From contig NZ_BCSR01000004.1 of assembly GCF_001570965.1 (NCBI RefSeq), positions 1 to 64,000 on the forward strand: a stretch of 64,000 bases of DNA. Direction: 5' to 3'. The notes under the pieces are model-generated. The model was not told the origin of the DNA, did not search any database, and was given only the letters and a program-made list of their open reading frames with translations. Below are positions 5,531 to 28,530 of the stretch, in pieces. This DNA comes from Janibacter corallicola NBRC 107790 (GTDB taxonomy: Bacteria > Actinomycetota > Actinomycetes > Actinomycetales > Dermatophilaceae). A program made the position numbers and the translations under genes. Each line of letters begins with the position of its first letter. The stretch's first letter is position 1.

Positions 5531-6802
5531 GTGTTGAGTTCCGCAACCACTCATCCCGCTCCCACGAAGCCCGGCAACCGCTGGGTCGTCCTCGTCGGCG
5601 GCGTGCTCGTCCAGCTGACCATCGGGGCCGTCTACGCCTGGAGCACGATGAGCCGTGCCCTCCAGGCGGATGAGTCCGCCTGGGACATCAGCGGCGTGCA
5701 GGCCGCCATCCCCTTCGAGGTCGCCATCGGGATGCTCTTCGTGGGCACCTTCCTCGGCGGCCGGGTCCAGGACAGGCGGGGTCCGCGGGTCGTCGCCCTC
5801 TCCGGCGTCGTCGTCTACTCGATCGGCATCATCCTGGCCGGCCTGACCCGGGACACCTCGGACCTGTGGCTGCTGATCCTCGGCTACGGCGTGCTGGGCG
5901 GCTTCGGTCTCGGCCTGGCCTACATCGTGCCGATCGCGATGCTGCAGAAGTGGTTCCCCGACAAGCGGGGACTGATCACCGGTGTCGCCGTGGGTGGCTT
6001 CGGCTTCGGTGCGGTGATCACCTCGCCGATGATGAACCGGCTCATCTCCGGGATCGACGACTACCAGGCCCAGCCGACCAAGGCCTTCATCTGGCTGGGT
6101 GTCGCCTACCTGGTCGTCGGGGCCATCGGCGCGTCCGTCTTCCGCAACCCCCCGGAGGGGTACACGGTCGCGGGTGCGGCCCAGAGCGGCGGCGCGGCGA
6201 CGTCGCCTCCGGCCGGACGGGACTTCACCCAGAAGGAAGCGATGAGCACCCCGCAGTGGTACCTGCTCACGTTGGTCCTCACGGTCTCGGTGACGGCGGG
6301 CATCTCGCTGATCTCGGTGGCGGCCGACGCCGCGACGGACATCGCGAGCTTCAGCGTCGCGGCCGCGGCGACCCTCGTCGGGATCATGGGCCTCTTCAAC
6401 GGCGGCGGCCGGATCTTCTGGGCGGCGGTCTCGGACCGGATCGGGCGCCGTTCCGCATTCGTGGGCATCCTCGGCCTGCAGGGCCTGGCACTGCTGGCCA
6501 TCCCGCACATCGGCAACATCGTGGTCTTCTACGTGCTCTGCGCGATCGTCTACACCTGCTACGGCGGCGCCTTCGGCACCCTGCCGGCGACCGCGGGCGA
6601 CTTCTTCGGTGTGCGGCACTCCGGTGCGATCTACGGGCTGATGCTCATCGGGTGGTCGATCGGCGGGATCATCGGCCCGCTGCTGATCACCTGGCTGATC
6701 GGTGACGACAAGGCCTACACCCTCGGTTTCACCGTCATGGGCCTCATCGCCCTCGTCGGCGTCATCCTGCCGATCATCTCCCGACCGCCGAAACACACCT
6801 GA
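5531..6802 (+). CDS. OFA-family MFS transporter (oxalate/formate antiporter-like)
   Basis: Major-facilitator protein of about 423 residues with some 12 hydrophobic segments. The first helix reads LVQLTIGAVYAWS, and GRVQDRRGPR is the MFS loop 2-3 motif; LGGFGLGLAYIVPIA and KWFPDKRG are hallmarks of the OFA subfamily. Its place directly behind the formate dehydrogenase genes suggests it moves formate or a related carboxylate; the substrate cannot be read from sequence. The start is unclear: AGGAGG at 5522-5527 sits 3 nt before GTG 5531 and 6 nt before TTG 5534, so TTG is equally possible. It lies 39 bp behind the NrfD gene and is probably in the same operon. Confidence 0.85.
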   Translation: MLSSATTHPAPTKPGNRWVVLVGGVLVQLTIGAVYAWSTMSRALQADESAWDISGVQAAIPFEVAIGMLFVGTFLGGRVQDRRGPRVVALSGVVVYSIGIILAGLTRDTSDLWLLILGYGVLGGFGLGLAYIVPIAMLQKWFPDKRGLITGVAVGGFGFGAVITSPMMNRLISGIDDYQAQPTKAFIWLGVAYLVVGAIGASVFRNPPEGYTVAGAAQSGGAATSPPAGRDFTQKEAMSTPQWYLLTLVLTVSVTAGISLISVAADAATDIASFSVAAAATLVGIMGLFNGGGRIFWAAVSDRIGRRSAFVGILGLQGLALLAIPHIGNIVVFYVLCAIVYTCYGGAFGTLPATAGDFFGVRHSGAIYGLMLIGWSIGGIIGPLLITWLIGDDKAYTLGFTVMGLIALVGVILPIISRPPKHT

Positions 6803-18759: not shown

Positions 18760-20220
18760 TCACATCTTCACGCCGATGTACTTCGTCTCGAGGAACTCGT
18801 CGATCCCGGTGAAGCCGCCCTCGCGCCCCAGACCGGACTCCTTGACCCCGCCGAAGGGAGCCGCCGGGTTGGAGACGACGCCCTGGTTCAGGCCGACCAT
18901 GCCGGCTTCGAGGGCGTGGCTGACCCGCAGGCCACGGTTCAGGTCCTGGGTGAAGAGGAAGGAGACCAGGCCGAAGGGGGTGTCGTTGGCCATCCGCACC
19001 GCCTCCTCCTCGGTGTCGAACTCCGTGATCGCCGCGACCGGGCCGAAGATCTCGGTGCTGGTCAGGTCGGCCTCCGCGGGGACCCCCGTCAGGACCGTGG
19101 CCGGGTAGAAGTGACCCTCGCGGTCGACCGGGCTGCCGCCGACGGCGACGGTGGCACCGCGCTCGACCGCGTCCGTGACGAGCTCGTGGACCTTCTCGAC
19201 CGCGCCCTGGTTGACCAGCGGCCCGACGACGACGTCGTCCTCGACGCCGCGGCCCATGGCCAGCTGTCCCATCCGCTCGGTGAGCCTGCGGGAGAACTCC
19301 TCGGCCACGGGGCGCTGCACGAGAATCCGGTTCGCGGCGGTGCAGGCCTGCCCGATGTTGCGCATCTTCGCCGCCATGGCCCCCTCGACCGCGACGTCGA
19401 GGTCGGCGTCCTCGAAGACGAGGAACGGGGCATTGCCCCCGAGCTCCATCGAGGTCTTCATGACGGTCTTCGCCGCGAGCTCGAGCAGGTGCTTGCCCAC
19501 CGGGGTCGAGCCGGTGAAGGAGAGCTTGCGCGAGCGCGGGTCGAGGATGATCGGGGTCATCACGTCATCGGTGTGGCTCGTCGTGACGACGTTGACGACC
19601 CCCTTCGGGAGCCCGGCGCGCACGAGGATGTCCACGAGCGCCAGGGTCGACAGCGGGGTCAGCGACGCGGGCTTGATCACCGCGGTGCACCCGGCGGCCA
19701 GAGCGGGGCCGATCTTGCGGGTGCCCATCGCCATCGGGAAGTTCCACGGCGTGATCAGCACGCAGGGCCCGACCGGCTCCTTGGCGACCATGAACTGCGC
19801 GCCGCCCGCGGGCGCCGTCATGTATCCGCCGTCGATGCGCACCGCCTCCTCGGCGAACCACCGGAAGAACTCGGCCGCGTAGGCGATCTCCCCCTTCGCC
19901 TCCGGCAGCGGCTTGCCCATCTCGAGGGTCATGATCAGCGCGAGCCGGTCCTGCTCGGCCATGAGCAGGTCGTAGGCACGGGAGAGGATCTCGCTGCGCT
20001 CGCGCGGTGCCGTCCTGGCCCAGTCCGCCTGGGCCGCATCGGCTGCGTCGAGGGCGCGCATCGCCTCCTCGGGGTCCGCGTCGGCGATCTCGACGAGCAC
20101 CTCGCCGGTCGAGGGGTCCTCCACCGGGAGCTTCTTCGCGGTGTCCACCCACTCCCCGCCGATGAAGAGCTGGGTCGGGACCGATGCGATCGCGTCGTTC
20201 TCGCGCGCGTTCTCTGCCAT
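18760..20220 (-). CDS. gabD: NAD(P)-dependent succinate-semialdehyde dehydrogenase-like
   Basis: Aldehyde dehydrogenase of 486 residues that oxidises a semialdehyde to the carboxylate. Visible blocks: ITPWNFPMAMGTRKIGPALAAGC (NAD binding), FTGSTPVGKHL, the glutamate in MELGGNAPFLVF, the nucleophile in NIGQACTAANRILV, and EIFGPVA near the C-terminus. The GQACTAANR context is typical of the GabD/SSADH subgroup. ATG 20220 has AAGGAGG just upstream. It is divergent from the aminotransferase gene, with an ATTGTCAACAAT palindrome between them, so the pair probably turns an omega-amino acid into a dicarboxylate. Confidence 0.9.
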   Translation of the reverse strand: MAENARENDAIASVPTQLFIGGEWVDTAKKLPVEDPSTGEVLVEIADADPEEAMRALDAADAAQADWARTAPRERSEILSRAYDLLMAEQDRLALIMTLEMGKPLPEAKGEIAYAAEFFRWFAEEAVRIDGGYMTAPAGGAQFMVAKEPVGPCVLITPWNFPMAMGTRKIGPALAAGCTAVIKPASLTPLSTLALVDILVRAGLPKGVVNVVTTSHTDDVMTPIILDPRSRKLSFTGSTPVGKHLLELAAKTVMKTSMELGGNAPFLVFEDADLDVAVEGAMAAKMRNIGQACTAANRILVQRPVAEEFSRRLTERMGQLAMGRGVEDDVVVGPLVNQGAVEKVHELVTDAVERGATVAVGGSPVDREGHFYPATVLTGVPAEADLTSTEIFGPVAAITEFDTEEEAVRMANDTPFGLVSFLFTQDLNRGLRVSHALEAGMVGLNQGVVSNPAAPFGGVKESGLGREGGFTGIDEFLETKYIGVKM

Positions 20221-20257
20221 GTCAAAGCCTCCTTGCCGTTGCCGCCATCCTAGAAGT

Positions 20258-20269
20258 ATTGTCAACAAT
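20258..20269. promoter_or_regulatory. Palindromic operator, probably for the GntR regulator
   Basis: ATTGTCAACAAT (ATTGT-CA-ACAAT) lies midway in the 73-bp divergent region between gabD and the aminotransferase. The same 12-mer, again preceded by CCTAGA, recurs at 24719-24730 in the cluster's other divergent region. TTGT-n2-ACAA dyads are typical of GntR/FCD regulators, and one is encoded at 26346. Confidence 0.75.
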
Positions 20270-20293
20270 CGGACAACCAATGGAGGTTCATCG

Positions 20294-21535
20294 ATGACTG
20301 CCCTGTCGCCCATCCTCAAGCAGGCCACCCCGGTGGTCGTCGACCACGCCCAGGGATGCGAGGTCTTCGACACCGACGGACGCCGCCACCTCGACTTCAC
20401 CGCCGGCATCGGCGTGGTCAGCACCGGCCACTGCCACCCGAAGGTGGTCGCCGCCGCCCAGGAGCAGGTCGGCAAGCTCATCCACGGCCAGTACACGACC
20501 GTCATGCACCAGCCGCTGCAGCGTCTCGTCGAGAAGCTCGGCGGCGTGCTCCCGCAGGGCCTGGACTCGCTCTTCTTCGCCAACTCCGGCAGCGAGGCCC
20601 TCGAGGCCGCGCTCCGACTCTCCCGGCAGGCGACCGGCCGCCCGAACGTCATCGTCTTCCACGGCGGCTTCCACGGCCGCACCGTCGCGACCGCGACGAT
20701 GACGACCTCGGGCACCCGCTTCTCCGCGGGGATCAGCCCGCTCATGGGCGGGGTGCACGTGGCCCCCTTCCCCACCGCCTACCGCTACGGATGGAGCGAG
20801 GAGGAGGCGACCCGCTTCTGCCTCCAGGAGCTGGACTACATCTTCGCGACGCTCTCCGCGCCGGACGAGACCGCCGCCTTCATCATCGAGCCGGTCCTCG
20901 GCGAAGGGGGGTACATCCCCGCCAACACCGCCTTCATGCAGGGTCTGCGGGAGCGGGCCGACGAGCACGGCATCCTGCTCGTCGTCGACGAGGTGCAGAC
21001 CGGCTTCGGCCGGACCGGTCGCTACTTCGGGCACGAGCACTTCGACGTGCGCCCCGACGTGGTCACCCTGGCGAAGGGGATCGCCTCCGGCTTCCCCATC
21101 TCCGGCATCGCCGCCTCCGAGGAGCTCATGGCCAAGGCCTGGCCCGGCTCGCAGGGTGGCACCTACGGCGCCAACGCCGTCGCCTGCGCGGCCGCAGTGG
21201 CCACCCTCGAGGTCATCGAGGAGGAGGGCCTCGTCGCCAACTCCGAGGAGCGCGGCAAGCAGCTCATCGAGGGCGCCCGCCAGGCCGCGGACGACGGCGT
21301 CGGTGACGTGCGCGGGCTCGGCCTGCTCGTCGGCAACGAGTTCACCACCGCGGACGGCGAGCCGGACACCGCCCGGGCCAAGGCCGCCCAGCAGAAGGCC
21401 GCCGAGAAGGGGCTGCTCATGCTCACCAACGGCGCGCACACGAACTGCGTCCGGATGATCCCGCCGCTCGTCATCACCCCCGAGGAGGTCGACGAGGGGC
21501 TGCAGATCTGGTCCGAGGTGCTGAAGGAGGTCTGA
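20294..21535 (+). CDS. Class-III omega-aminotransferase (4-aminobutyrate transaminase-like)
   Basis: PLP-dependent aminotransferase of 413 residues. The class-III features are all present: FANSGSEALEAALRLSRQAT (phosphate-binding), HGGFHGRT, the aspartate in LLVVDEVQTGFGRTGR, and the PLP lysine in TLAKGIASGFPISG. It would convert an omega-amino acid such as GABA or beta-alanine to the semialdehyde oxidised by the divergent GabD. The exact amino donor cannot be told. TGGAGG precedes the ATG. Its end is 3 bp from the DUF3830 gene, so both are cotranscribed. Confidence 0.88.
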   Translation: MTALSPILKQATPVVVDHAQGCEVFDTDGRRHLDFTAGIGVVSTGHCHPKVVAAAQEQVGKLIHGQYTTVMHQPLQRLVEKLGGVLPQGLDSLFFANSGSEALEAALRLSRQATGRPNVIVFHGGFHGRTVATATMTTSGTRFSAGISPLMGGVHVAPFPTAYRYGWSEEEATRFCLQELDYIFATLSAPDETAAFIIEPVLGEGGYIPANTAFMQGLRERADEHGILLVVDEVQTGFGRTGRYFGHEHFDVRPDVVTLAKGIASGFPISGIAASEELMAKAWPGSQGGTYGANAVACAAAVATLEVIEEEGLVANSEERGKQLIEGARQAADDGVGDVRGLGLLVGNEFTTADGEPDTARAKAAQQKAAEKGLLMLTNGAHTNCVRMIPPLVITPEEVDEGLQIWSEVLKEV

Positions 21536-21538
21536 GCC

Positions 21539-22033
21539 GTGGCTCGCTACATGACGATCACGCTCGAGAGCCGGGGGGTCTCGTGCCGGGCCCGGCTGCT
21601 CGACGAGGAGGCGCCCGGCAGCTGCGCCGCGGTGTGGGAGGTGCTGCCGACCGGGGGTGATGCCTTCCACGCGAAGTACGCCCGCAACGAGGTCTACACC
21701 CTCATCCCCCGGCTGACCGCGGCTCCCCACCGGGAGAACCCGACGATCACGCCGATCCCGGGGGACGTGTGCCTCTTCGACTTCGAGCCCTGGGAGATCG
21801 GCAACCCGGCCTACGGCTACGACGCGGGGTCGGCGGCGCACGCGGAGCAGGGCGCGACCGACCTGGCGATCTTCTACGGGCGCAACAACCTGCTCGTCAA
21901 CGGTGACGTCGGCTGGGTGCCCGGCAACGTCTTCGCCACGATCGAGGAGGGGCTGGCCGAGATGGCCGAGGCCTGCAACGACCTCTGGCGCACCGGCGTC
22001 GTGGGCGAGCGACTCACCTTCGCCCGGGCCTGA
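21539..22033 (+). CDS. DUF3830 family protein (cyclophilin-like fold)
   Basis: A 164-residue protein of the DUF3830 family; the opening YMTITLESRGVSCRARLLDEEAPGSC and the middle block PGDVCLFDFEPWEIGNPAY and IFYGRNN are its hallmarks. The family has a cyclophilin-like beta-barrel and no proven reaction. It is placed 3 bp behind the aminotransferase and inside an amide/amino-acid catabolic cluster, so a role in handling the same substrate is likely. GTG 21539 is the only sensible start. Confidence 0.82.
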   Translation: MARYMTITLESRGVSCRARLLDEEAPGSCAAVWEVLPTGGDAFHAKYARNEVYTLIPRLTAAPHRENPTITPIPGDVCLFDFEPWEIGNPAYGYDAGSAAHAEQGATDLAIFYGRNNLLVNGDVGWVPGNVFATIEEGLAEMAEACNDLWRTGVVGERLTFARA

Positions 22034-22221
22034 ACCACGCCTGACCCACGAAGCCCGACCCGGGCGCTGCCTCGGGGGAGGGGGTGCACGCGCCCGGGCC
22101 GGGGGTCGATGGACGCCACCGACCACAGCAGTGGCGCAGGCGAATCTCCGGCCTGACAGGCTTGCCCGATTCCCCCTCCGTCACGTCTCGACGGCGCCTG
22201 CCGCCGGATTACGGTTGTGGT

Positions 22222-22249
22222 AGGGCCCTCCAGTGCACTGGAGGGCCCT
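22222..22249. terminator. Perfect 28-bp palindrome between convergent genes
   Basis: A perfect 28-bp palindrome centred on GTGCAC, with GGGCCCTCC arms, lies in the 299-bp gap between the convergent DUF3830 and amidase stops. Apart from it I see no gene or other clear signal in 22034-22332. A bidirectional terminator is the likely role, though such long perfect dyads can also be binding or recombination sites. Confidence 0.65.
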
Positions 22250-22332
22250 CCTCCCCCGAACCCATGCGTTGATCTTACTACTTCTTTACTCTTTGTGAAG
22301 GTCTCGTTCCGGCAACGGCACGGGCCGTCGCC

Positions 22333-23703
22333 TCAGCGGCCCATCACCCACTCCACGAACCGCCCGGCGGCTAGGACGAGGTCGTCGGAGTGGCGCGGTC
22401 CGACGATCTGCAGACCGACCGGCAGCCCGGCGGCGGTGGTGCCCACGGGGATGCTGATCGCCGGCTGCTGGGTCATGTTGAAGGGGTAGCTGAACTGCGT
22501 CCACTGCGGCCAGGTCTCGTAGTCGCCGCCCGGCGGCACGTCGTGCCCGGCCTCGAAGGCGACGATCGGCATCGTCGGGGTGATGAGCAGGTTGTGCTCC
22601 TCGTGGAACTGCCCCATCCGGATCCCGAGGGCTGCCGAGACGGCCTGCGCCTTGAGGAACTCCACGGCCGTGGCCCGGTCGCCCTGGTCCCACATCCGCC
22701 CCAGCCCGGGGTCGACGGTCTCGCGGGCACCGGGCATGCCGCCGAGCAGCTTCGCCGCGCCGGCAGCCCAGAGCAGTTGGAAGGACTCGTACGGGTCCTC
22801 GAAGCCGGGATCGGCGTTCGTCACGTCGAGGCCGGCAGCGGCCACCTTCGCCACGGCGTCGTCGCAGATGCGGGCGACCTCCGGGTCGACCCGCACGTAC
22901 CCGAGGTCCCTGGAGTAGGCGACGTGCAGCCCGGTCACCTCACGGTTGAACTCGCCGCGGTAGGTCAGCTGCGGCGGTGCCTGCGAGGTCGGGTCGCGCG
23001 GGTCCGGGAGCGAGAGGATGTCCATGAGCAGCGCGGCGTCCTCCACGGTGCGCGTCATCGGACCAGCGTGCGCCAGGGGCCCGAAGGGGCTCGCCGGGTA
23101 CATCGGGATCCGGCCGTGGGTGGGCTTGAGCGCGACGATCCCGCAGAAGGAGGCCGGGATGCGCACGCTGCCACCGCCGTCGGTGCCGACCGCGACCGGG
23201 CCCATGCCGCTGGCGACCGCGGCCGCCGCCCCACCGGAGGAGCCGCCGGCGGTCGTGCTCGGGTCGACCGGGTTGCGCGTGATCCCCGTGAGCGGGCTGT
23301 CGGTGACCGCCTTCCACGCCAGCTCCGGGGTCGTGGTCTTGCCGACGAAGACCATCCCGTCGGCCCGCAGGCGGGCGGTCACGGGGGCGTCCTCGTCCCA
23401 CGGCTGGTCCGGGTCGACGGCCCTGGAGCCGCGCAGCGTCGGCCAGCCCTTGGTGAGGAAGATGTCCTTGATCGAGATGGGCACCCCGTCGAGCAGGCCC
23501 TGGGGGTGCCCGGCGCGCCACCGCTCCTCGGAGGCACGGGCCATCTCCAGCGTCGTCTCGCGATCGACCAGGCAGAAGGCATTGAGCCCACCGTCGACCT
23601 CGTCGATGCGGTCCAGCACCGCCTCGGCGGCCTCGACCGGCGAGAGCTCACCACCCCCGTAGGCGGCGACGAGCTCGACGGCGGTCATCTCGGTGGGGTT
23701 CAT
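22333..23703 (-). CDS. Amidase-signature family hydrolase
   Basis: A 456-residue amidase. The Ser-Ser-Lys triad is visible: K79 in GVPISIKDIF, the cis-serine in TAGGSSGGAAAAV (S155/156), and the nucleophile S179 in GTDGGGSVRIPAS. It releases ammonia from a carboxamide. Substrates of the family range from indoleacetamide to nylon oligomers, so the target is unknown, but the neighbours suggest an amide of a dicarboxylic or amino acid. The start ATG lies 3 bp after the stop of the D-2-hydroxyacid dehydrogenase gene, so the two are one operon, the dehydrogenase first. Confidence 0.9.
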   Translation of the reverse strand: MNPTEMTAVELVAAYGGGELSPVEAAEAVLDRIDEVDGGLNAFCLVDRETTLEMARASEERWRAGHPQGLLDGVPISIKDIFLTKGWPTLRGSRAVDPDQPWDEDAPVTARLRADGMVFVGKTTTPELAWKAVTDSPLTGITRNPVDPSTTAGGSSGGAAAAVASGMGPVAVGTDGGGSVRIPASFCGIVALKPTHGRIPMYPASPFGPLAHAGPMTRTVEDAALLMDILSLPDPRDPTSQAPPQLTYRGEFNREVTGLHVAYSRDLGYVRVDPEVARICDDAVAKVAAAGLDVTNADPGFEDPYESFQLLWAAGAAKLLGGMPGARETVDPGLGRMWDQGDRATAVEFLKAQAVSAALGIRMGQFHEEHNLLITPTMPIVAFEAGHDVPPGGDYETWPQWTQFSYPFNMTQQPAISIPVGTTAAGLPVGLQIVGPRHSDDLVLAAGRFVEWVMGR

Positions 23704-23706
23704 CTC

Positions 23707-24690
23707 TCAGCTCCCGGTGCTCGGTACGTAACCCAGTGAGGTGTCGACGACGTTGGCCAGCGGCTCCTCGTCGACCCAGCGCGCGAAGTTGTCCGCGAAC
23801 AGGCGCAGCAGCTCCTCGCGCCACCCGATGAAGTCCCCCGAGTTGTGCGGGGTGATGACGACACCGGGCATGCCCCACAACGGGTGGTCCTCCGGCAGCG
23901 GCTCGACGTCCAGGACGTCGAGCGCGGCTCCGGCGATCGACCCGTCACGCAGAGCGGACACGAGGTCGTCGGTGACGACGGACTCCCCGCGGCCGACGTT
24001 GATGAAGCGGGCGTGGTCCGGCATGGCACGGAAGGCCGCCGCGTCGAACATCTCCTTGGTGTCCTCGGTCAGCGGCGCGATGCCGACCACCCAGTCGGCG
24101 CGGCCGAGCGCCTCGTGCAGGTCCGCCTGGGCGGTGACCGTCCCGAAGTCCGGGTCGTCGGTGCGGGCCCGGCGGCCCGACCCGGAGACCTGCACGCCCA
24201 CGGCGGTGAGCAGCCGCGCGACGGCCCGCCCGATCTGGCCGGTGCCCACGACGAGCGCCTTGGTGCCGGCGACCCGCTCGGACTCCCGGTGCACCCAGCG
24301 CCGGGCGCGCTGCAGTTCCCAGGAGCGCGGCATGTCCTTGGCGAAGCTCAGCACCTGCCCCACGACGTACTCCGCGATGGAGTCGTTGAAGACCCCCCGC
24401 GAGTTGGTGAGGATGACGTCGCTGTCGACGACCTCCGGGGAGAGGATCGCGTCCACCCCGGTGGCCGCGACGTGGATCCAGCGAAGGGAGTCGGCCGCGT
24501 GCCAGGCGTCCGGTATCGCCTGCGAGAAGAAGTCGTGCGCGAAGAGCACGTCCGCGCCGGGCAGCGCGTCGGGCAGCTCCTCTGCCGTCGCGTAACGCAC
24601 CTCGGCCGCCTTCTCGCGCACGGGCGCCATCGCCTCTTCATCGGGGAGATCACCGTCGTGCAGCACCACGACCACGGACTGCCTGGTCAT
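23707..24690 (-). CDS. D-2-hydroxyacid dehydrogenase
   Basis: NAD-dependent enzyme of 327 residues interconverting a 2-oxoacid and a D-2-hydroxyacid. The Rossmann motif is ALVVGTGQIGRAVARLL, with the catalytic Arg in INVGRGESV, the Glu in DVLDVEPLPEDHPLW and the His in VVITPHNSGD. The second residue after His is Ser instead of the commoner Gly-W pattern, but the triad is complete. It starts a two-gene operon with the amidase and is divergent from the maleate-isomerase-like pair. Two TTGTCAAC-type sites lie at or just upstream of its start codon, suggesting GntR control. Confidence 0.9.
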   Translation of the reverse strand: MTRQSVVVVLHDGDLPDEEAMAPVREKAAEVRYATAEELPDALPGADVLFAHDFFSQAIPDAWHAADSLRWIHVAATGVDAILSPEVVDSDVILTNSRGVFNDSIAEYVVGQVLSFAKDMPRSWELQRARRWVHRESERVAGTKALVVGTGQIGRAVARLLTAVGVQVSGSGRRARTDDPDFGTVTAQADLHEALGRADWVVGIAPLTEDTKEMFDAAAFRAMPDHARFINVGRGESVVTDDLVSALRDGSIAGAALDVLDVEPLPEDHPLWGMPGVVITPHNSGDFIGWREELLRLFADNFARWVDEEPLANVVDTSLGYVPSTGS

Positions 24691-24730
24691 GTTGACAACG
24701 TAGAAGCGGCGCTCCTAGATTGTCAACAAT
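24689..24730. promoter_or_regulatory. Two operator-like sites between divergent operons
   Basis: ATTGTCAACAAT at 24719-24730 is identical to the site at 20258. A second half-conserved site, ATGTTGACAACG at 24689-24700 (reverse complement CGTTGTCAACAT), overlaps the start codon of the D-2-hydroxyacid dehydrogenase. Binding at both would repress both divergent transcripts. Confidence 0.7.
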
Positions 24731-24766
24731 CTTGCAATCCTCCCTCTGTGAAGGTGAGGTCCCACC

Positions 24767-25546
24767 GTGGAGCTGACCGACGTCGAACTCGACGGCCCAC
24801 TCGCGCAGCGCGGCATCGGCATCATCGCGCCCTTCGACCTCGCCCTCGAGCGGGAGTTGTGGCGCTGGGCGCCGCTGGAGGTCAGCTTCCACCTGGCGCG
24901 CACCCCCTTCGAGCCGGTGGCGGTGAGCCTGGAGCAGGCGGAGCTCGTCTCGGCCCCGAAGCACCTGCAGACCGCGACCCGCGACGTACTCGGCGTCTAC
25001 CCGGAGATCGTCGCCTACCTGTGCACCTCGGGCAGCTTCATCCACGGGGTGGAGCACGAACGACGGCTCGTGCAGGCGATCCTCGACGCGGGCGCCCCGG
25101 ACGCGGTGACCACCTCGGGCGCCCTCGTCGAGGCGGTGCGCGCGCTCGGCCTGTCCCGGATGTCCGTCATCACGCCGTACGACGAGACGCTGACCCGGCG
25201 CCTCGAGGCCTTCCTCGGGGAGCTCGGCGTCGAGGTCCTCCACTCCCAGTACCTCGGTCTCGGCGGCGGCATCTGGCGGGTCAACTACCGCACCGTGGCC
25301 GAGCTGATCCTCGCCGCCGACGACCCCGCGGCGGAGGCCATCTTCGTCTCCTGCACCAACTTGCCGACCTACGACATCATCGCGCCGATGGAGCGCGAGC
25401 TCGGCAAGCCGGTGCTCACCGCCAACCAGCTGACCGTGTGGTCCTGCCTGCACCGGATGGGCCTGCCGATGATGGGCCCGGGCAGCTGGGTGACCCCGCT
25501 GCTCGAGCGCGAGGGCGAGACCGCACCAGGAAAGGAGCACCCATGA
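24767..25546 (+). CDS. Maleate isomerase/Asp-Glu racemase-fold protein, two-cysteine form
   Basis: A 259-residue member of the maleate cis-trans isomerase group of the Asp/Glu racemase superfamily. Both catalytic cysteines are there: C86 in AYLCTSGSFIHG and C196 in IFVSCTNLPTYD. Maleate isomerase converts maleate to fumarate through a Cys-adduct; related enzymes racemise amino acids, isomerise allantoin/hydantoins or decarboxylate malonates. GTG 24767 follows an AAGGTGAGG ribosome site. It overlaps the next, related gene by 4 bp and is expressed from the operator-bearing divergent region. Confidence 0.85.
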   Translation: MELTDVELDGPLAQRGIGIIAPFDLALERELWRWAPLEVSFHLARTPFEPVAVSLEQAELVSAPKHLQTATRDVLGVYPEIVAYLCTSGSFIHGVEHERRLVQAILDAGAPDAVTTSGALVEAVRALGLSRMSVITPYDETLTRRLEAFLGELGVEVLHSQYLGLGGGIWRVNYRTVAELILAADDPAAEAIFVSCTNLPTYDIIAPMERELGKPVLTANQLTVWSCLHRMGLPMMGPGSWVTPLLEREGETAPGKEHP

Positions 25547-26349
25547 GCACCGACCGGGCCACGGTCGGGATCATCTACCCCGACCATGCCGCCGAGGACG
25601 ACTACCCGCTCGCCGAGCGGCTGCTCGGGGTCTCGCTGCCGGTGGTCCACATCTACGGCACGGACCTGCACGCGGTACCCGAGCTGCTGGACCTCGGCAG
25701 CCCGCAGCGCCTCGCCGAGGGGGCCCACCAGCTCGCCGGGCACGCGCCCGATGCGGTGATGTGGGCCTGCACCTCGGGCAGCTTCGTGCGCGGGGTCGAC
25801 GGGGCCCGCGTGCAGGTCGAACGCCTCGCCGACGTCACCGGGGTACCGACCTCCAGCACGAGCCCGGCCTTCGTCGGGGCGCTGCAGACCCTCGGGCTCT
25901 CCAGGGTGTCGGTCGCCGCGAGCTATCCCGACGACATCGCCCAGCTCTTCGTCGACTACCTCGCCGCCGGTGGCGCCCGGGTGCTCGCGATGTCCAGCGC
26001 CGGCATCGACACCGCGGCGGAGGTCGGGACCCTGCCCCCGGGCCGGGTCGTGGACCTCATCACCGCAGCGGACCGGGAGGACGCCGAGGCGGTCCTCGTC
26101 CCGGACACGGCGATGCACACCCTCGGGGTCATCCCCGAGGCCGAGGCGGCGATCGGCAAGCCCGTGCTCACCGCCAACCAGGTGACGATCTGGCAGGGGC
26201 TGCAGCCCCTCGGGTGGCACGGAGGGGGCGAAGGGGGCCCCGCAGCGACCGCTCCGCCCGAGGGGGCGCCACCGCCCGTGCGGACACTCGGGGCACTCTT
26301 CGCCACCGGTGGCACCGCCGGGGACCGCACCACCGGCGAGAGGGCATGA
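25543..26349 (+). CDS. Paralogous Asp/Glu racemase-fold protein lacking one catalytic Cys
   Basis: A 268-residue homologue of the preceding protein. The first cysteine is kept (C76 in MWACTSGSFVRG), but the second site reads VLVPDTAMHT, with D188 where the partner has Cys. Family members with one Cys exist, for example arylmalonate decarboxylase, though that enzyme keeps the second. So this copy probably does a different reaction or forms a heteromer with its partner. The C-terminal 40 residues are Gly/Pro/Ala-rich and likely disordered. It overlaps the upstream gene (ATGA) and the GntR gene by 4 bp: a three-gene operon. Confidence 0.8.
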   Translation: MSTDRATVGIIYPDHAAEDDYPLAERLLGVSLPVVHIYGTDLHAVPELLDLGSPQRLAEGAHQLAGHAPDAVMWACTSGSFVRGVDGARVQVERLADVTGVPTSSTSPAFVGALQTLGLSRVSVAASYPDDIAQLFVDYLAAGGARVLAMSSAGIDTAAEVGTLPPGRVVDLITAADREDAEAVLVPDTAMHTLGVIPEAEAAIGKPVLTANQVTIWQGLQPLGWHGGGEGGPAATAPPEGAPPPVRTLGALFATGGTAGDRTTGERA

Positions 26350-27014
26350 TGTCGGACCTCGAGGTCACCCCCGCCCCACGACGATCGACCGTCGAGCACA
26401 TCGCCGCGGAGCTGCGTGCCGCCGTCATCGCCGGGACGTTGCCTCCCGGGACACAGCTCGGGGAGGCGGACCTGGCCCATCGCTTCGAGGTCTCGCGGGG
26501 CCCCCTTCGCGAGGCCATGCAACGCCTGGTCTCGGAGGGCATCCTCGTGGCCATCGCCAACCGCGGGGTCTTCGTCACCGAGCTGACGACCGAGGACATG
26601 GCCGACATCTACCGTGCCCGTGCGGCGATCGAGCGCGGCGCCGCGGAGGTCCTCCTCGACGGGCACCGCCGGCAGGCGCACAGTGCGCTCGGGCCCCCGG
26701 TCCGGGAGATGAAGGCAGCCGCCCGGGCCGGCGACGGGCCCGGCGTCTCGGATGCCGACCAGGCCTTCCACGAGGCGCTCGTCGCGTGCTCGGGGAGCCC
26801 TCGTCTCATCCGCGCCATGAGCACCCTCATCGTCGAGACCCGGCTCTGCCTGGGTGAGCTGCGCACGACCTACCCCGACCTGCGTACCCAGGTGCGCGAG
26901 CACGAGGACCTGCGCCGGGCCATTCGGGACGCCCCGCGCGAGCAGGTCCTGGACCACGTGCGCGCACACCTCGAGGACGCCGTCGACCGGCTCACCGCGA
27001 AGCGAGCCGGCTGA
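26346..27014 (+). CDS. GntR-family regulator (FCD subfamily)
   Basis: A 222-residue regulator. The N-terminal winged helix covers about 15-80: AAELRAAVIAGTLPPGTQLGEADLAHRFEVSRGPLREAMQRL is the GntR signature. The C-terminal all-helical FCD domain contains D-x-x-FH (ADQAFHEALV) and a late His (VREHEDL, VLDHVRAHL) for metal/ligand binding. It is last in the operon with the two racemase-fold genes. FCD regulators bind TNGTnnnACNA-like dyads, and the two identical ATTGTCAACAAT sites in this cluster are good candidates. Start is ATG 26346 or ATG 26349. Confidence 0.9.
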   Translation: MMSDLEVTPAPRRSTVEHIAAELRAAVIAGTLPPGTQLGEADLAHRFEVSRGPLREAMQRLVSEGILVAIANRGVFVTELTTEDMADIYRARAAIERGAAEVLLDGHRRQAHSALGPPVREMKAAARAGDGPGVSDADQAFHEALVACSGSPRLIRAMSTLIVETRLCLGELRTTYPDLRTQVREHEDLRRAIRDAPREQVLDHVRAHLEDAVDRLTAKRAG

Positions 27015-27044: not shown

Positions 27045-28292
27045 TCAGGGGACGATGATCTCCGCCCCCGCGAGCGCCTCACGGTTGGCCTGGGCGATCC
27101 CGCGAGCGGTGGTGCGTGGCGGCACCCGGTCACTCGTCCAGGCCTCGAGGATCACCGCGACCTTGGACTGCATCTCGTTGCGCAGCCTGCGGAAGGAGTC
27201 CTCGGGATCGGTCCCGACCTGGCCCTGCAGCAGCCACCAGGCCCAGGCTGCGGCGCCCGCGTTGGCGACGAAGTCCGGGACGACCGGCACGCCGCGAGCG
27301 GTCAGCTCGTCCTCCGCCGGCGCGGTCGTCGCCGTGTTCGCGGCCTCGACGACCACCCGGGCGGCGACGTCGGCGACGTTGTCCTCGTTGATCGCGTACG
27401 AGACGGCGGCGGGCACGAGGATGTCGACCTCGCTGGCGAGGATCGCATCGCGGGGCAGCTGCTCGACGCTCCCGGGGACCTGCGAGCGGTCGATCTCGCC
27501 GTACTCGTCACGAGCCGCGAGGAGCGCGGGCACGTCCAGGCCGTCCGGGTCGCGCAGCGTCCCGCCGGCGTCGGCGATCGCCACGATCTTCACACCCGCC
27601 TCGTGCAGGTACCAGGCTGCTCCGCCGCCCATGGTCCCGACCCCCTGGACCGCGACGGTCGTGGTCGACGGGGGCCAGCCCAGCGCCACCGCCGTGCCCA
27701 GGCAGGCCTGCGCGACGCCGTAGCCGCCGATGACGTCACCGAGGGGCAGCGGCAGCTCGTCCTCGGTCTGGACGTGCAGCCCGGCCCGGACCCGGGCCAG
27801 TGCGCGCTCCGGGTCGGCGGAGCGACCGATCGCCGCGTGGTAGGACTGCGAGAGCCCGAGCTCGGCGAAGGCCTCGTCGATCTGCTCCTGGGAGACGCCC
27901 AGGTCCTCCGCGGTGATCCAGTGCCGGTCCAGCCAGGGGCGCATGGCCTCGCAGAAGCGGGTCAGCACGCCCATGGCCCGTGGGTCCTTCGGGTCGAAGT
28001 CGATACCGCCCTTGGCGCCGCCGACCGGGAGGCCGAAGGTCGCGGTCTTCGTGGCCATGCCGCGGGCGAGGTCGGTGACCTCCTCGACCGTGCACCCCTT
28101 GCGCATGCGGGTACCTCCCGTGGCGAGGCCCCCGACGAGCGTCTGCACGACGAGGAATCCGTCGGCGCCCGTCACCGGGTCGCGCCAGGTGACCTCGTGC
28201 GCCGGAGGGGCCTCGGTCAGGTCGACCGGGACGGCTGTCACCGCCTGTCGGGCCTGCTTGTCCAGTTCACCCCTGTTGTCCATCAGCGTCAT
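27045..28292 (-). CDS. Glu/Leu/Phe/Val dehydrogenase
   Basis: NAD(P)-dependent amino-acid dehydrogenase of 415 residues. The catalytic lysine is in LPVGGAKGGIDFDP, the partner Lys in GGTRMRKGCTVEEV, and the Rossmann domain begins VAVQGVGTMGGGAAWYL, with FVANAGAAAWAWW near the end. Whether it uses glutamate, leucine or another amino acid cannot be told. ATG 28292 was chosen because GGAGG sits 8 nt upstream; a GTG three codons earlier overlaps that site. It is convergent with the GntR gene and divergent from a LysR regulator that may control it. Confidence 0.88.
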   Translation of the reverse strand: MTLMDNRGELDKQARQAVTAVPVDLTEAPPAHEVTWRDPVTGADGFLVVQTLVGGLATGGTRMRKGCTVEEVTDLARGMATKTATFGLPVGGAKGGIDFDPKDPRAMGVLTRFCEAMRPWLDRHWITAEDLGVSQEQIDEAFAELGLSQSYHAAIGRSADPERALARVRAGLHVQTEDELPLPLGDVIGGYGVAQACLGTAVALGWPPSTTTVAVQGVGTMGGGAAWYLHEAGVKIVAIADAGGTLRDPDGLDVPALLAARDEYGEIDRSQVPGSVEQLPRDAILASEVDILVPAAVSYAINEDNVADVAARVVVEAANTATTAPAEDELTARGVPVVPDFVANAGAAAWAWWLLQGQVGTDPEDSFRRLRNEMQSKVAVILEAWTSDRVPPRTTARGIAQANREALAGAEIIVP

Positions 28293-28530
28293 GTCGACCA
28301 CCTCCGTAGCGAGATCGAGGGCCTCGTTGCCCCGTACGGCCAGCGTGCGGCCGGGCCCGAGCCCCCGTCCAGCAACAGTTCGTGCACGTTCCTGCGAAGG
28401 TTCACTTCACGATCGCGAGGGCGCCTCGGATGGACGTGGCCGCGCCGACGTTCCACCGGCGGGTCGACCTCGACCCGGGTCGCCGACGAGGCTCCGGGCA
28501 TTCCGTGCCACGCCGTGCCACTCTGGGCTC

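Follow-up and report, generated by a model that had tools for sequence, protein, structure and literature searches.

Which compound is degraded by the eight genes at positions 18760-27014 of contig NZ_BCSR01000004.1 of Janibacter corallicola NBRC 107790? They lie in a window of 64,000 nucleotides, by which we mean the whole stretch of DNA analysed (positions 1 to 64,000 of the contig, assembly GCF_001570965.1), in a genome of 3.1 Mb. An earlier note had described them as a GntR-controlled catabolic cluster of unknown substrate. We consider it likely that they form a new type of actinobacterial cluster for the catabolism of ectoine, a molecule that protects cells against salt, and probably also of 5-hydroxyectoine, with an FCD-type GntR regulator of its own. 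Comparison of the window proteins with Pfam and NCBIfam profiles found every gene that had been named in this interval: an SSADH-like aldehyde dehydrogenase (hereafter SSADH), a class-III aminotransferase (AT), a DUF3830 protein, an amidase, a D-2-hydroxyacid dehydrogenase (D2HDH), two proteins of the Asp/Glu-racemase superfamily (IsoA and IsoB) and a GntR regulator. The genes are arranged as two divergent pairs of transcription units, with SSADH facing away from AT and DUF3830, and amidase and D2HDH facing away from IsoA, IsoB and GntR. Within each transcription unit the genes are spaced by a 3 bp gap or a 4 bp overlap. Below, G numbers denote genomes, L numbers loci, and g64 one genus.

Conservation of the group was assessed in 104 distinct loci selected solely by a DUF3830 gene (16, plus 74 of 80, plus 14 of 20) and read over stretches of up to about 20 kb. 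Repeats of Janibacter loci (L037-L041, L044) and of L069 and L104 (L162, L163) were left out before counting, and L164-L167 were excluded: L164 has DUF3830 and a dehydrogenase, L165 has DUF3830 (31%) and SSADH (36%), and L166 and L167 have only weak SSADH or GntR matches. DUF3830, amidase, D2HDH, IsoA and IsoB occurred together in 91 of the 104 loci, and all eight genes were present in 68. This grouping far exceeds chance. The 13 loci without the full five comprise 8 whose stretches or contigs end early, that of G040, which has the rest at a second locus, and 4 others. In distant genomes the gene order is shuffled and the gene content kept. Outside Janibacter, median identity was highest for DUF3830 (79%), followed by AT (77%), IsoA (72%), SSADH (71%), amidase (69%), IsoB (66%), D2HDH (62%) and GntR (58%). 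The eight genes are a single conserved unit.

It had been suggested that GntR controls one catabolic unit, a proposal to which independent expression of the operons would be fatal. The palindrome ATTGTNNACAAT occurs in only two copies in the 3.1-Mb genome, one in each divergent promoter (Table 1), and a control pattern has no occurrence there. When up to two mismatches were allowed within the window, none of 100 shuffles reached the observed match count. Among relatives, the core TTGTNNACAA was present in all 75 SSADH/AT intergenic regions and in 80 of 87 D2HDH/IsoA regions, and these two region types hold 155 of the 189 core sites found within 1.94 Mb. All seven D2HDH/IsoA regions without the core belong to g64 (L149, L151, L152, L154, L158, L159, L161), and the stretches read there contain no GntR of this type; in its place, an IclR-like gene and ehu genes are found repeatedly at g64 loci (fam10-fam12 and fam4, six loci; named on L154 and L158). 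The presence of GntR thus tracks that of the operator across the relatives' loci. Because the palindrome is unique to both promoters, its core is conserved there and no such GntR was seen in the stretches read around the misses, we infer that both divergent operons belong to one regulon. The FCD-GntR protein is proposed as the specific repressor of the unit. The shared, conserved palindrome bears out the idea of a single GntR-controlled unit and argues against independent expression.

Sites away from the unit were also recorded. Palindromes on G033 contig 2 (L243), in G041 (L244) and in G339 (L245) have no unit genes nearby. Lone palindromes of this kind are uninformative, since 5 of 12 genomes without a strong DUF3830 match (G001, G016, G017, G018, G021, G025, G031, G036, G041, G042, G046, G050) carry one or two. 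A contig of G048 (contig 7, L239) has four ATTGTNNACAAT sites, at 6094, 8206, 8227 and 18561, near genes for a different GntR protein (26%), an SSADH (53%) and a class-III aminotransferase (31%), and may represent a paralogous regulator and catabolic regulon using a similar operator.

Genes adjoining the unit in relatives point to the substrate. In G290 (L150), ectABCD lies immediately ahead of DUF3830 and in the same orientation; amidase, D2HDH, IsoA, IsoB and GntR come after it, and all four synthesis proteins exceed their cut-offs (EctA 178.7 bits against 120.6, EctB 644.8 against 552.2, EctC 190 against 128, EctD 426.3 against 336.5). As for uptake, EhuB is encoded within 5 kb of DUF3830 in all 11 g64 genomes searched (15 g64 genomes have DUF3830), EhuA, EhuB, EhuC and EhuD of G325 exceed the equivalog cut-offs, and in G040 genes for EhuA and EhuB, both above cut-off, adjoin SSADH, amidase, IsoA, IsoB and GntR together with two permease genes. 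Ehu names taken from HMM equivalogs are predictions, best supported by the G040 EhuB, whose top solved match is 2q88 (E 3.3e-65; next 6.3e-17), the S. meliloti EhuB structure. Full-length genes resembling that of EutD, the known ring-opening enzyme, stand next to unit genes in G040 (416.5 bits) and G034 (431 bits), below the cut-off of 613. The operator extends to such genes as well: in G040 the palindrome stands upstream of ehu and of the EutD-like gene, in G043 it separates a GntR homologue (39%) from ehu, and in G033 it stands upstream of the EutD-like gene, with a weaker form upstream of ehu. ProP-like transporters (best model below cut-off) lie behind the palindrome in G034, at the likely start, and behind the weaker form in G033.

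Co-occurrence was counted in a draw of 296 genomes of the class; the DUF3830 and EctC draws agreed in size, genera and quality counts and were taken to be the same genomes. Of the 39 genomes with DUF3830 at E<=1e-50, 36 had EctC above its cut-off, against 29 of the other 257 (Fisher 6e-25, a P value overstated by the relatedness of the genomes). Counting by genus is a partial remedy, and gave EctC in 11 of 13 genera with DUF3830 and 8 of 102 without. A second set consisted of 29 genomes with a strong DUF3830 match (locus read in 25) and 40 relatives without one. Here EhuB reached E<=1e-40 in 26/29 versus 4/40 and its cut-off in 24/29 versus 2/40, and EctC was found in 28/29 versus 4/40. G001, a member of the genus Janibacter that has no DUF3830, likewise has no EctC, no EctD and no EhuB at E<=1e-40. 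The J. corallicola genome itself has EctABC matches, EctD at 340 bits (cut-off 336.5) and, at another locus than the unit, EhuB at 201.4 bits (cut-off 190.9); the organism appears able to make ectoine. Taken together, the linkage to synthesis and uptake, the adjoining EutD-like genes, the shared operator and the co-occurrence make ectoine and/or 5-hydroxyectoine the very probable substrate.

Several observations weigh against this assignment. EctD and EhuB of J. corallicola clear their cut-offs only narrowly, and its own ehu and ect loci (L181, L196), like five further ehu loci (L183-L187), have no operator. Of the 29 genomes with a strong DUF3830 match, three (G034, G290, G306) gave no EhuB at E<=1e-40. 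Across both genome sets, EctC was not found in G040, G145 and G330; G330 has DUF3830 and neither EctC nor the palindrome. Conversely, 29 of 65 genomes with EctC are without a strong DUF3830 match, and G001 has an EutD-like gene (402.6 bits) and no DUF3830. In the stretches read, loci L083, L087, L097 and L103 show SSADH, AT and DUF3830, and neither amidase, D2HDH nor Iso genes. DUF3830 of G145 stands without the remaining unit genes nearby. On a Caballeronia plasmid (L147, 12001-12444), a distant DUF3830 gene (29%) accompanies GntR, a class-V aminotransferase, an FAD oxidoreductase and a branched-chain-type ABC transporter, a context in which DUF3830 may serve other substrates. The EutA model TIGR02990 scores IsoA at 109 bits and IsoB at 92.3 bits, against a cut-off of 318.

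The substrates first put forward for the cluster, namely maleamate, amides of 4-aminobutyrate (GABA), beta-ureido compounds and hydantoins, found no support. An unrelated amide of this type would account for the presence of an amidase, an omega-aminotransferase, an SSADH and maleate-isomerase-type folds, and two Nocardia loci do carry a hydantoinase-like block inside the unit; this is the only trace of hydantoins, present in just 2 of 9 inserts examined between DUF3830 and amidase, and the linkage and regulon evidence points to ectoine, making such a substrate very improbable indeed. The block extends over 10492-18785 in L073 and 10492-18150 in L090. In L073, on which the families were tested, it encodes a hydantoinase/oxoprolinase-like protein, a relative of thiohydantoin desulfurase (below cut-off; presumably DUF917) and a permease of the cytosine/purine/allantoin type; a further gene in the block looks PucR-like. 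The insert was taken as an independent block and the hydantoin link set aside.

If the substrate is ectoine, its ring must be opened and the product deacetylated. The best match to EutD/DoeA (TIGR02993) in the J. corallicola genome reached 95.2 bits against a cut-off of 613. None of 71 genomes surveyed exceeded that cut-off, and 7 had a match at E<=1e-50, of which 2 were among the 29 with unit-type DUF3830. EutE/DoeB (TIGR02994) gave no match at E<=1e-5 in J. corallicola; 2 of 34 genomes (G033, G034) had one, neither above cut-off. The control genome of Haloferax volcanii matched the DUF3830, EutD and EutE models, with scores below the cut-offs for the latter two. With neither a close EutD nor a close EutE detected in the J. 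corallicola genome, both steps would need other enzymes, and the amidase, DUF3830 and the two EutA-like proteins are the candidates. The same absence would suit a unit that degrades an ectoine-adjacent metabolite rather than the ectoine ring. N-acetyl-diaminobutyrate and diaminobutyrate would be examples, as would other cyclic amidines or N-acyl diamino acids imported through an Ehu-type system. Amidase, aminotransferase and aldehyde dehydrogenase would suffice for N-acetyl-diaminobutyrate, and DUF3830 does occur in another context in Caballeronia. We regard this as quite improbable in view of the linkage to ehu and ectABCD and the operator common to ehu and EutD-like genes, and it would leave DUF3830 and two EutA-like proteins without a task.

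For the breakdown of ectoine itself, the module of G033 offers a guide. Its genes are split between two groups of a single contig, both of which carry the same operator, and include a homologous GntR (47%), D2HDH, SSADH (64%) and AT (67%); an EutD-like M24 protein, a class-I aminotransferase and an M20 protein resembling ArgE/acetylornithine deacetylase replace amidase, DUF3830, IsoA and IsoB. These predicted activities are recognisable as a route from ectoine through N-acetyl-diaminobutyrate and diaminobutyrate to aspartate, which suggests a function for the DUF3830-type set. In G003 (L241; a draft, 92% complete), both operators, SSADH, AT, amidase, D2HDH and GntR are kept while DUF3830, IsoA and IsoB are missing together, one hint from one draft genome that these three may act together. 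Since G034 and G040 carry the EutD-like set as well as the DUF3830 set, the two are not strict alternatives, and the notion of DUF3830 as a simple substitute for EutD is weakened. Elsewhere, an EctB-like aminotransferase (48%), a weak EutD-like M24 protein (30%) and an SSADH-like protein (36%) are encoded in tandem in G043 (L214, 8120-12004), possibly a further diaminobutyrate or ectoine module.

We modelled the structure of the DUF3830 protein (mean pLDDT 88.3). The model matched 3kop, a solved DUF3830 relative deposited as uncharacterized, with Z 26.2 (1.4 A, 154 residues aligned), and the cyclophilin-like domain of the Pictet-Spenglerases KslB (Z 16.8, 2.2 A, 132-134 aligned) and McbB (Z 16.7, 2.0 A, 132 aligned), with ordinary cyclophilins lower at a Z of about 11. 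Cyclophilin-like enzymes of the KipI/PxpB type, which had been expected, were not among the 50 fold matches listed, a result that does not rule out a relation to them. DUF3830 (PF12903) consists of this single domain, in sequence it resembles McbB only marginally (E 0.053), and we found no activity on record for it. Pictet-Spenglerases build N-heterocycles from amino acids; the titles of the structure entries name L-Trp. As enzymes of like fold make such rings, DUF3830 could plausibly act on the ring of a heterocycle derived from an amino acid. Polar residues invariant in an alignment of 17 sequences are H44, K46, R49, N50, E51, E66, N67, D76, D108, R115, N116, N117, N121 and D123. We tentatively propose, with somewhat less than even confidence, that DUF3830 together with IsoA and IsoB is a new cyclophilin-fold enzyme opening the ectoine ring, unrelated to the M24 protein EutD, which would supply the missing first step in actinobacterial ectoine makers without EutD under the operator GATTGTNNACAATC.

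IsoA and IsoB had been called maleate-isomerase-like. This can be refined: both proteins pass the gathering cut-off (25.9 bits) of the Pfam arylmalonate-decarboxylase family PF17645, and the top NCBIfam model for each is EutA, with arylmalonate decarboxylase second (73.9 and 85.5 bits, equivalog cut-off 225), all below cut-off. Among solved chains, maleate isomerase and arylmalonate decarboxylase tie as closest to IsoA, and the decarboxylase is ahead for IsoB. IsoA has both cysteines of the fold, as does Rhizobium EutA, and IsoB lacks the second. In counts that still contain the duplicates L162 and L163, C86 and C196 of IsoA were present in 93 of 93 loci, as was C76 of IsoB, and D188, at the place of the second cysteine of IsoA, was found in all 92 loci that have a residue at this position.

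This likeness to EutA raises the alternative that the unit as a whole, or the part made up of DUF3830, IsoA and IsoB, serves 5-hydroxyectoine specifically, with IsoA and IsoB inverting the hydroxyl carbon, D2HDH acting on a product of the 3-hydroxyaspartate type, and ectoine handled elsewhere. A passage of PMC5924519 gives inversion of 5-hydroxyectoine as the proposed role of EutA. The ectABCD genes beside the unit genes of G290 include that of EctD, G003 lacks an EctD match along with DUF3830, IsoA and IsoB, and the EutD-like module accompanies the DUF3830 set in G034 and G040. Seven Janibacter genomes (G005, G007-G012), however, have the unit and no EctD match at E<=1e-30, and 27 of 29 DUF3830-type genomes have no EutD-like match at E<=1e-50 that could serve ectoine, so that we judge exclusive use of 5-hydroxyectoine unlikely. 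Co-occurrence with EctD was also considered as proof of a hydroxyectoine role and was dropped, the EctD survey giving it no support.

A unit for ectoine, and probably 5-hydroxyectoine, might then work as follows. GntR would repress at ATTGTNNACAAT until released by an ectoine breakdown product. The ectoine ring would be opened to N-acetyl-diaminobutyrate without EutD, by DUF3830 with IsoA/IsoB or by the amidase. The amidase, a candidate N-deacetylase, would strip acetate to leave diaminobutyrate, the proposed diaminobutyrate aminotransferase AT would yield aspartate-4-semialdehyde, and SSADH, the proposed aspartate-semialdehyde dehydrogenase, would oxidise this to aspartate. A variant order fits equally well, in which AT and SSADH would transaminate and oxidise the N-acetyl forms (N-acetyl-diaminobutyrate and N-acetyl-aspartate-semialdehyde) and the amidase would deacetylate N-acetyl-aspartate last. 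Steric inversion by IsoA/IsoB, as proposed for EutA, is a guess, and any role for D2HDH is likewise guesswork. The earlier expectation that an amide gives rise to both an omega-amino acid and a dicarboxylate is, as general chemistry, compatible with this route, in which N-acetyl-diaminobutyrate would give diaminobutyrate and aspartate. The semialdehyde dehydrogenase scores below the cut-off of the SSADH model (Table 1).

That the cluster matches no complete known pathway is literally right. With the proteobacterial clusters eutABCDE-ssd-atf (with ehu or ueh) and doeABCD it shares an SSADH, a class-III aminotransferase, EutA-like proteins, control by the GntR superfamily and, in relatives, Ehu uptake. 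SSADH of J. corallicola is 46.6% identical to Ssd over 468 residues in Rhizobium and 47.1% over 463 in Paracoccus ectoine clusters; AT is 30% identical to Paracoccus Atf over 439 residues, and many other class-III models score too. Unlike those clusters, the unit has an amidase, DUF3830, a second EutA-like protein and D2HDH where EutD and EutE would be expected, and no EutB or EutC among its genes (a genome-wide search was not made). Its regulator is an FCD-GntR, whereas theirs is the MocR-type EnuR, often with AsnC (the J. corallicola genome beyond the unit was not searched for EnuR). Passages of the 2011 doe paper consider alternative pathways without DoeA, including a variant via N-acetyl-aspartate (PMC3187862), and the EutD-free unit fits these.

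Putative Gram-positive ectoine clusters, including ones in Actinomycetota, were reported in 2026 on the basis of EutD and EutB, with eutE absent in Bacillaceae (PMC13188858). They resemble the unit, as far as that main text describes them, in predicted ectoine catabolism in Actinomycetota, and differ in holding abgB (a putative amidohydrolase), thrA and adh; EutD and EutB, the genes used for the search, are absent from the unit. The main text of that report has no word starting with amidase, DUF or hydroxyacid, and the main text of a 2026 paper on ectoine in Streptomyces venezuelae (PMC13189361) has none starting with ehu, degrad, catabol, amidase or DUF. DUF3830 was unmentioned in the literature searched, and no prior actinobacterial description of the unit was recognisable from titles and abstracts beyond the PMC13188858 clusters; most subscription papers lay outside both searches.

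Table 1. Genes and putative operators of the unit, in window coordinates.
Feature	Position	Strand	Match or note
SSADH/DoeC-like aldehyde dehydrogenase	18760..20220	-	Aldedh 535 bits; TIGR01780 571.8 vs cut-off 646.35
Putative operator ATTGTCAACAAT, SSADH/AT divergent promoter	20258..20269		core conserved in relatives (see text)
AT, class-III aminotransferase	20294..21535	+	Aminotran_3 387 bits
DUF3830 protein, cyclophilin-like fold	21539..22033	+	PF12903 207.2 bits vs gathering cut-off 26
Amidase-signature hydrolase, PRK06169 group	22333..23703	-	NF004815 738.8 bits vs cut-off 506
D2HDH, 3 bp upstream of amidase gene, same strand	23707..24690	-	2-Hacid_dh_C 171.3 bits
Putative operator ATTGTCAACAAT, D2HDH/IsoA divergent promoter	24719..24730		core conserved in relatives (see text)
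IsoA, EutA/arylmalonate-decarboxylase-like, both cysteines (C86, C196)	24767..25546	+	PF17645 89.0 bits
IsoB, relative of IsoA, first cysteine only	25543..26349	+	PF17645 82.4 bits; 4-base overlaps with IsoA and GntR
FCD-type GntR regulator	26346..27014	+	GntR 65.2 bits, FCD 67.6 bits, both above cut-off

A gene for a Glu/Leu-type amino acid dehydrogenase (27045-28301) neighbours the unit. It adjoins the unit in 11 of 13 Janibacter loci, the remaining two stretches stopping short of it, and in Georgenia L042, and it is absent beside the unit in all Nocardia and Rhodococcus loci examined. As it adjoins the unit in Janibacter and Georgenia loci only, it was set aside as a member. The lone DUF3830 gene of G145 (L164) also has a Glu/Leu-type dehydrogenase gene as neighbour, together with a ProP-like transporter. 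At g64 loci (L149, L151, L152, L154, L158, L161), a luciferase-like monooxygenase (fam16) recurs in 4 loci and a GGDEF/EAL protein (fam8) in 7, both labelled from L158.

The unit would add one candidate new enzyme family, DUF3830, to known ectoine catabolism, and with it a family of solved structure gains a testable function. It is a concrete candidate for ectoine breakdown without EutD in Actinomycetes, and names a putative regulator and operator for the regulon. It could explain how many ectoine makers recycle ectoine by a route without the known ring-opening enzyme. Since breakdown would cut the yield, it may also be relevant to making ectoine in actinobacterial hosts.

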